Of a stretch of DNA of 35,987 bases, positions 2,522-5,815 are shown one piece after another. Within the stretch, counting starts at the first letter, position 1; each line of letters starts with the position of its first letter. Origin of the DNA: Clostridiales bacterium (GTDB taxonomy: Bacteria; Bacillota; Clostridia; Lachnospirales; Lachnospiraceae); assembly GCA_012519565.1 (NCBI GenBank), contig JAAYPX010000007.1:1-35987 (forward strand). The letters are read 5' to 3'. The notes under the pieces are model-generated. The model was not told where the DNA came from. It made no database searches and was given only the letters and a program-made list of their open reading frames with translations. Made by a program: the position numbers and the translations under genes.

Positions 2522-3295
2522 TCAATTTCCACATTCTATGCTTATTTCATTAAACTTTTCCAGTATATCATCTATACTCAAATACTTCTTTTTCTCTGAA
2601 TCACAATCGATAACTATCTCTCCTTGGTGCATCATTATCAGCCTGTTGCCGTACTCCACCGCATATCGAAGATTATGGGTTACCATAATTGTTGTCAGCT
2701 TCTTCTCTGTTACAATCTTATCTGTTAGCTCCATTATTAAATCTGCAGTTTTAGGATCCAATGCCGCCGTATGTTCATCTAAAATCAAAAACTCTATAGG
2801 TGTCATGGTTGCCATAACTAGGGCCATGGCCTGTCTTTGTCCCCCGGATAAAGATCCAACCATAACATCCAACTTATCTTCCAATCCTAGGTTCAAAGCC
2901 CGAAGACAATCCCTATAATAATCAATCCGATTTTTATTGGTCCCCCTTAGAAGATTAAAAGATTTACCCTTGTTGTCGGCTAATGACATATTTTCCAGTA
3001 TCGTCATATTAGGGCAAGTTCCCATAGCAGGATTTTGATATACTCGGCCTATCTTTTTAAGCCGCTTATACTCCTGCCTATGGGTAATATCCTCATCATT
3101 CATAAGAATTCGACCTCGATCTAGAGGAATACTTCCGCATATAAGATTTAACATTGAGGTTTTACCAGAACCATTGCTACCAACTACTGAAACAAACTCT
3201 CTATCTTTAATAATAAAATTAAAATTATTAAACAGGCACATCTCATTAACCGTTCCTGGATTATAATATTTATTGATACTTTCCATCCTAAGCAT
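2522..3295 (-). CDS. trpZ: Tryptophan-type ABC importer, ATP-binding subunit
   Basis: The protein has 257 residues with a complete ABC ATPase motif set: Walker A GSNGSGKT (39-46), signature LSGGQRQAM (149-157), Walker B FLILDEHTAALD (169-180) and a switch His in MVTHN. It should power uptake on the cytoplasmic face together with the permease encoded directly upstream. Its ATG overlaps the permease stop by 8 nt, which suggests translational coupling. DEHTAALD, with His after DE in place of the usual Pro, is a small departure from the common DEPT form. The substrate is assigned from the T-box in front of the operon, not from this protein. The family (partners of PF04392 binding proteins) also includes transporters of unknown substrate. 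Confidence 0.85.
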   Translation of the reverse strand: MLRMESINKYYNPGTVNEMCLFNNFNFIIKDREFVSVVGSNGSGKTSMLNLICGSIPLDRGRILMNDEDITHRQEYKRLKKIGRVYQNPAMGTCPNMTILENMSLADNKGKSFNLLRGTNKNRIDYYRDCLRALNLGLEDKLDVMVGSLSGGQRQAMALVMATMTPIEFLILDEHTAALDPKTADLIMELTDKIVTEKKLTTIMVTHNLRYAVEYGNRLIMMHQGEIVIDCDSEKKKYLSIDDILEKFNEISIECGN

Positions 3296-4290: not shown

Positions 4291-5283
4291 CTAGTCAGAA
4301 ATCTCATCAAACATCTCAACCGCATTGGCAACTAGATCCTCAGGTAACTCAATACCCAGTTTCTCTGCAACAGCAGTATTACCATAAAAAGATGCAGCTT
4401 CAATAACTTCAAACTTCATTTCACTGGCCTTTGCCTCACCTTTTAAAATCTTAGCTGCCATCTTCCCTGTCTGTATTCCCAGTTCATAATAATCAAGTCC
4501 CATAGCAGCCAGACAACCTATCTTTACTTGTTCCACTTCGCTACCAAACACCGGTATATTCTTGCTAAATGCCTTCTCTAATATTATTGGTAATGCGCTA
4601 ACTACTGTATTATCTGTTAGGTTGGAAATAACATCCACCTTTCCCAGGATATTATCCGTAGCTAAAGGTATGTCCGCCTGAACAGTTACACCACTTTCTA
4701 TTATCTCAAAGCCATATTTTGGCCCTAATTCCTTATATACTTCAATAGCCGATACGGAATTAACTTCACTGGTACTATATAGAATACCTATTTTCTTAGC
4801 CTCTGGCAATATCTGACGAATCATCATCAGCTGTTCTTCAATAGGAAGTTTATCACTGGTTCCAGTAATATTGCCTGTAGGTGTACCATCTTCATTAGCT
4901 AATTGAGCCAAAACAGGATCTGTAATCGCTGTATAAACCACTGGTAAATCTATATCTCGGGTTGCTCCATATGCACTTTGAGTTATAGGTGTGGCAATTG
5001 TAGCAATCATATCTACTTTCTTAGCTACAAAGTTAGTAATAATCTGATTGGCCAAATCAGTATCGGCTTGGGCATTATGAAAGTCAATTGATAGATTTTC
5101 TCCCTCTACAAAACATTCCTCTGCAAGACCTGCTATGAAGCCTTCCCTACAATTATCCAGAGAACCATGTTCTGCAAACTGTCCGATACCTATAGTCACC
5201 GTTCCTTCTTTTGACTTTTGACAACCTGTTAAAGTACTTAAGGTTAAAGTTAAAATTCCAATTACCAGTAAAAATTTCTTCAT
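4291..5283 (-). CDS. trpX: Tryptophan-type ABC importer, substrate-binding lipoprotein (PF04392 family)
   Basis: The 330 residues begin with a lipoprotein signal peptide: MKKF, a hydrophobic core, then lipobox LTGC with Cys21 as the lipidation site. The mature part matches the two-lobed ABC_sub_bind family, with TVTIGIGQFAEHGSLDNCREGF at its start, ATPITQSA, PVVYTAITDP and a C-terminal ALGLDYYELG-like block. It is the first gene of a lipoprotein-permease-ATPase operon and should capture the ligand outside the membrane. A T-box riboswitch with a UGG specifier controls the operon, so tryptophan is the likely ligand. Related trpXYZ operons in streptococci carry the same regulation. GGGAGG lies just upstream of the ATG. 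Direct evidence for ligand specificity is absent. Confidence 0.87.
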   Translation of the reverse strand: MKKFLLVIGILTLTLSTLTGCQKSKEGTVTIGIGQFAEHGSLDNCREGFIAGLAEECFVEGENLSIDFHNAQADTDLANQIITNFVAKKVDMIATIATPITQSAYGATRDIDLPVVYTAITDPVLAQLANEDGTPTGNITGTSDKLPIEEQLMMIRQILPEAKKIGILYSTSEVNSVSAIEVYKELGPKYGFEIIESGVTVQADIPLATDNILGKVDVISNLTDNTVVSALPIILEKAFSKNIPVFGSEVEQVKIGCLAAMGLDYYELGIQTGKMAAKILKGEAKASEMKFEVIEAASFYGNTAVAEKLGIELPEDLVANAVEMFDEISD

Positions 5284-5353: not shown

Positions 5354-5434
5354 ATTTTTATATATCCTATTTTTATTCTTGGGTCCTATCCTAGTGTAGA
5401 AGCTAATTTATATACAATAAAAGGTAATAAAAAA

Positions 5435-5716
5435 GTCTCAAGTAACATTATACTTGAGACGAATAATAATCCGCGGTACCACTCAATTTGACTAAGCCAA
5501 TTTATCTGACTTAGACCACTCTTTCATATACTAACATATATGCCATATATATATAACGGTTATGGATTCCGTCAACGCCTACTATTACTTCGGGTTGCCC
5601 TCAAAAGCCCATTCAGCTTATAATCATATCGCTTCCCACCTACCAGCGACTCTCTGAAATGTTATTATTAAGCTTACTCCTCTTTCTCAACGGTTTAGCA
5701 TATTAACTTGTTAATT
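5435..5716 (-). ncRNA. T-box riboswitch (tRNA-Trp sensing) controlling the trpXYZ-type importer
   Basis: Read on the minus strand, all main T-box parts are present. Stem I closes with GTTG/CAAC and carries a specifier loop formed by AGTA on the 5' side and GAA on the 3' side. GAA is followed at once by the codon TGG (5609-5611, tryptophan) and a purine. The AGAGAG and GGTGGGAAGCG segments form the upper stem I. The conserved T-box GAGTGGTACCGCGG lies at 5471-5484. The terminator is GTCTCAAGTA/TACTTGAGAC (5435-5444, 5451-5460) followed by a run of T. Uncharged tRNA-Trp should stabilise the antiterminator and switch on the importer. The 5' end is inferred from the promoter. Confidence 0.93.
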
Positions 5717-5722
5717 TACTAA

Positions 5723-5751
5723 ATAATAATACAAGGTCTATCAATTGTCAA
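5723..5751 (-). promoter_or_regulatory. Sigma-A promoter of the T-box / trpXYZ-type operon
   Basis: On the minus strand TTGACA (5746-5751) and TATTAT (5723-5728) are separated by 17 bp. The predicted transcription start, near 5716, lies just before stem I of the T-box. Confidence 0.8.
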
Positions 5752-5776
5752 CCATAAAATAAAATTCTTTATAAAA

Positions 5777-5806
5777 TGGTTGTCGCGGAATTGACTGCGA
5801 CAACCA
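5777..5806 (-). terminator. Terminator of the cotJABC operon
   Basis: Perfect 10-bp arms TGGTTGTCGC (5777-5786) and GCGACAACCA (5797-5806) with a 10-nt loop lie 9 bp beyond the cotJC stop. The minus-strand tail ATTTTATAAAG is T-rich but not a pure run. Confidence 0.75.
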
Positions 5807-5815
5807 AATAACCTC

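Follow-up and report, generated by a model that had tools for sequence, protein, structure and literature searches.

T-box specifier codons were used to name transporters in 2008, and Trp T-boxes on ABC importers were listed at that time (PMC2494555). In Streptococcus suis, the UGG T-box of the trpXYZ operon has been tested by reporter, qRT-PCR and mutants, and a trpX mutant was found to grow poorly on low tryptophan (PMC9382623). Three relatives of the binding protein have been solved: C. difficile CD0873 (PDB 6HNI), which binds tyrosine, V. cholerae VC_1101, which binds phenylalanine, and S. pneumoniae SP1069 (PDB 3LFT), which binds tryptophan. A two-position specificity rule was described, in which Glu/Tyr denotes tyrosine, Ala/Tyr phenylalanine and Ala/Gln tryptophan (PMC6816091).

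We analyzed a stretch of 35,987 nucleotides (hereafter the window) from a clostridial genome; among named organisms, its closest relatives are members of the Lachnospiraceae, for example Herbinix and Anaerocolumna. Similar to the S. suis system, the locus combines a UGG specifier, a terminator, and a PF04392-type binding protein with permease and ATPase in one operon (PMC9382623). It differs in its T-box sequence (UGGU, versus UGGC in S. suis), in its leader of about 250 nt, compared to 461 nt, and in its TrpX pocket, where S. suis has the tryptophan-type glutamine Q273 and the window protein has Glu/Tyr. The UGG T-box on a trpXYZ-type importer is already known from streptococci, and the window holds a further member. 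We consider it very probable that the leader is a class I transcription-attenuating T-box riboswitch for tRNA-Trp governing a trpXYZ importer operon, most likely one for tryptophan.

T-box leader and importer operon

The first-pass annotation had proposed a complete UGG-specifier T-box, with promoter and terminator in place, in front of a PF04392-type ABC importer. An Infernal search (cmscan) with the Rfam T-box model RF00230 returned a single match in the window, at 139.3 bits (gathering threshold 93; E 3e-31), spanning the full model from 1 to 219. All conserved boxes were present and nothing notable differed from the family, so that a complete class I leader is confirmed at the locus. The proposed loop, AGTA ... 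GAA-TGG, was recovered as well, with the 3' side reading GAA-UGG-G at 5614-5608. The promoter, matching 11 of 12 consensus positions, and the terminator hairpin both fell within 5435-5751; promoter-like sites over the whole region were not above chance, and the promoter call rests on position, not count.

On the minus strand the order is promoter, T-box leader, intrinsic terminator, trpX-like, trpY-like and trpZ-like genes (Table 1). The TrpXYZ gene set of binding protein, permease and ATPase is consecutive behind a single leader, and 168 bases separate the end of the T-box match (5452) from the start of the trpX-like gene. The assignment to PF04392 was upheld by a Pfam profile search, where ABC_sub_bind matched the trpX-like protein at 263.4 bits (gathering 25.9). 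The leader parts, specifier, gene content and conservation are all evident from the sequences themselves.

Table 1. Features of the T-box leader and the trpXYZ-like operon in the window.
Feature	Position	Strand	Basis
Sigma-A type promoter TTGACA-17-TATTAT	5723..5751	-	11/12 consensus positions
T-box leader RNA from stem I through the antiterminator (RF00230)	5452..5699	-	cmscan, 139.3 bits
AGUA, specifier loop 5' side	5675..5678	-	sequence and cmscan alignment
Tryptophan specifier UGG, with GAA 5' of it at 5614-5612	5609..5611	-	cmscan alignment, same-genome trpE/trpB leaders, relatives
T-box sequence UGGU, pairing with tRNA NCCA end	5478..5481	-	sequence and cmscan; G73 of relatives' tRNA-Trp
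Antiterminator, UUGAG ... CUCAA flanking UGGU bulge	5454..5486	-	cmscan, folding, covariation
Intrinsic terminator, 10-pair stem, loop 6, T6	5429..5460 (hairpin 5460-5435)	-	sequence, folding, covariation
trpX-like lipoprotein substrate-binding protein, 330 aa	4291..5283	-	PF04392
N221 codon; pocket position specific to the clade, aligned with CD0873 V235	4621..4623	-	alignment, relatives
Codon of E249 (slot of CD0873 E263)	4537..4539	-	alignment with solved relatives
Codon of Y265 (slot of CD0873 Y279, SP1069 Q284)	4489..4491	-	alignment with solved relatives
trpY-like permease, 303 aa	3288..4199	-	PF02653
trpZ-like ATPase, 257 aa, overlapping trpY	2522..3295	-	PF00005

The terminator fold (-14.9 kcal/mol, z -5.8) was strong given its composition, and the bulged antiterminator hairpin can also form (-6.8 kcal/mol). 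A common CUCAA strand pairs with UUGAG upstream in the antiterminator and with UUGRG downstream in the terminator, making the two structures mutually exclusive. In four relatives the three strands were found to covary, for example from UUGAG/CUCAA/UUGAG to UUGGG/CCCAG/CUGGG or GCGGG/CCCGG/CCGGG, although two of the four retain one imperfect antiterminator pair. Such a joint change of all three strands is needed if antiterminator and terminator both matter. A chance or decayed T-box devoid of function would have to be set against intact parts, covarying stems and a specifier that is invariant across the clade, and we give this explanation a negligible probability.

By analogy with the known family, the switch would operate through binding of uncharged tRNA-Trp. 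When tryptophan is short, the uncharged tRNA would pair with the leader at two sites: the CCA anticodon at the UGG specifier, and the GCCA end, through one U.G wobble, at the UGGU of the antiterminator bulge. The antiterminator would then form and the operon would be transcribed. With charged tRNA-Trp, the terminator at 5460-5429 would form instead and transcription would end.

It was also noted that an inverted repeat, GGTTGTCGC ... GCGACAACC, lies at window positions 5775-5810, 3' of cotJ-like genes; it is probably their terminator, immediately ahead of the T-box promoter. At the other end, trpZ is followed by a PFK-family gene (PF00365; 1194-2414) with a promoter-like TTGACA-17-TAGAAT ahead of it at 2479-2451, which suggests that this gene may be transcribed on its own.

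Specifier codon and the tRNA-Trp end

The specifier slot was checked against fourteen other T-boxes in the same genome, with gene names read from translations. The codon directly after GAA was UGG for trpE and trpB, UAC for tyrS, CCC for proS and CUC for leuS; one base further on, the leaders of pheS, cysE, valS, metG, thrS and ileS read UUC, UGC, GUA, AUG, ACC and AUC. In eleven of these other leaders the slot codon fits the downstream gene. Among distinct orthologous trpX leaders, UGG occupied the specifier in 68 of 68, while the base 3' of it varied between A, G and C. Two leaders of the same genome could be read only tentatively. One (L011; G000:C203:18020-18315) precedes a metG-like gene of the class I aminoacyl-tRNA synthetase type, with CAA or ACA as specifier candidates. 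The other (L013; G000:C83:194-442) carries a UGGA T-box ahead of a branched-chain-type substrate-binding protein and has an irregular specifier loop in which AUC is possible; in that reading, an A73 tRNA would be unable to pair with UGGA.

No tRNA-Trp was found in the source assembly, which is incomplete (269 contigs), and G73 was therefore taken from same-genus relatives, in which every tRNA-Trp gene read had anticodon CCA and discriminator G. Some same-genus genomes had a tRNA-Trp(CCA) gene of very different sequence (L098, L101, L102), with G73 too, and two genomes (G012 and G002) gave two tRNA-Trp hits each. Opposite G73, the UGGU of the window leaves a U.G wobble. We considered this wobble as an anomaly and rejected the idea, as it is already recorded for Trp T-boxes, 46% of which carry it according to TBDB (PMC7778990). 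UGGU is also the T-box sequence of the trpE leader in the same genome; that of the trpB leader is UGGC. Across 97 UGG leaders of PF04392 genes the variable T-box base was U in 76 and C in 20, counts that come from related sequences and are not independent. C was confined to the UGG class, with none in 17 UAC/UUC leaders; this base is the one expected for a G73 tRNA, and it fits tRNA-Trp.

These data bear on whether the specifier could be a different codon, namely AUG (Met, frame -1) or GGG (Gly, frame +1). One-base shifts of T-box specifier frames do occur (PMC7778990), and UGGU would pair perfectly with A73 of tRNA-Met. However, GAA-UGG recurs in the leaders of trpE and trpB within the same genome, and the C found in 20 of the 97 UGG-class leaders excludes tRNAs ending in A73 (Met) or U73 (Gly). 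Because the base after UGG varies, GGG is also not conserved. Both frames were rejected on the mismatch of their tRNA ends with this C, leaving either of them highly improbable, and the UGG reading of the first-pass annotation holds. The operon is almost certainly regulated by uncharged tRNA-Trp.

Clades and paralogues of PF04392 genes

About 220 PF04392 genes were gathered from the genus, from GTDB genomes and from the class, and their leaders were read. Pattern calls gave 97 UGG, 11 UAC and 6 UUC leaders; with manual reading UGG rose to 99 and UUC to 8. The UAC and UUC leaders were genuine T-boxes where tested. In a quick tree, the UGG clade with the Glu/Tyr pair received an SH-aLRT value of 100, with the window protein inside it and CD0873 outside; its 53 sampled rows comprised 41 UGG leaders, 12 without a T-box call and zero UAC or UUC. 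A second, small UGG group carried the Ala/Tyr pair. No T-box was recognized by leader pattern at five Butyrivibrio-type loci (L142, L148, L159, L162, L168), and none was called within 1 kb upstream of a gene near-identical to that of CD0873 (L228).

One genome (G324; a single contig without a trpA match) possessed three PF04392 paralogues, L225, L273 and L283, under UGG, UAC and UUC T-boxes. This trio is consistent with a separate importer for each aromatic amino acid. Two of the three stand in tandem, with specifiers that differ in the middle base. The source genome has a second PF04392 paralogue of its own (L254; G000:C62:8104-8904), cut at a contig end, which scored 310 bits on the NCBI TrpX model versus 263 for the T-box gene. 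Its genus orthologues had no T-box call and group with the UUC/UAC-regulated genes.

Of 15 genomes sampled from the class that carry a PF04392 gene under UGG control, 9 had no trpA match and would thus need tryptophan import; with 146 of 293 overall, the absence is not clearly enriched and shows no more than that such genomes exist.

Binding pocket and transported substrate

The first-pass annotation had assigned tryptophan as the substrate from regulation alone. Tryptophan stands as the regulating amino acid, but the substrate is not fixed thereby, as we compared the window protein with CD0873, VC_1101 and SP1069 and found E249/Y265, the tyrosine-type pair, there and in nearly all orthologues. 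The Ala/Gln tryptophan pair of SP1069 was absent from the window protein. The best-scoring solved structure was CD0873, which shares its family and its Glu/Tyr pair but has V at the N221 slot and lies outside the UGG clade; SP1069, with the same fold and family and an A/Q pocket pair, matched at only 168 bits. The pocket and the UGG regulation are therefore two lines of evidence in conflict.

Taken at first as evidence against tryptophan, the Glu/Tyr pair proved not to discriminate, since it occurs in all UAC and UUC genes and in all but a few UGG genes. As it is common to the three classes, the amino acid that regulates a gene cannot be predicted from it. The column that does separate them is position 221, with Asn in 95 of 99 UGG genes and in 0 of 19 UAC/UUC genes. 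In CD0873 the corresponding V235 helps hold a water that contacts the tyrosine hydroxyl (PMC6816091). As this column is confounded with descent, N221 is a candidate specificity determinant of the UGG clade and not a demonstrated one. We lean slightly toward a non-streptococcal pocket through which the clostridial UGG clade would bind tryptophan, keeping Glu/Tyr while Asn221 and the FGSExEQ segment accommodate the indole.

An alternative is that the leader senses tRNA-Trp, yet the importer mainly takes tyrosine, or aromatic amino acids of any kind; starvation for tryptophan would then induce a broad aromatic importer. The pair shared with tyrosine-binding CD0873, the rank of CD0873 as top-scoring structure, and the compatibility of Glu/Tyr with UGG, UAC and UUC regulation would all agree with this. 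It is nevertheless unlikely, given that the specifier follows the protein clades, that separate UGG, UAC and UUC paralogues coexist in one genome, and that N221 is a pocket change peculiar to the UGG clade. The first two of these suggest a division of substrates. Clade and paralogue evidence thus still favours tryptophan despite the pocket conflict, and we infer that it is probably the main substrate of the importer.

The earlier remark that the substrate of this transporter family is often left unnamed is fair for the clade of the window protein: on the NCBIfam TrpX equivalog NF041285, the window protein scored 263.3 bits, below the cut-off of 390. Because this model misses the clade, the T-box carries information that protein models lack, and it supplies a likely substrate for a large importer clade of clostridia, most of them Lachnospiraceae. 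For about a hundred genes, the pocket rule, which was derived from three crystal structures, is at odds with their regulation; if the clade does bind tryptophan through its own pocket, the published two-residue rule would be wrong for most clostridial members.
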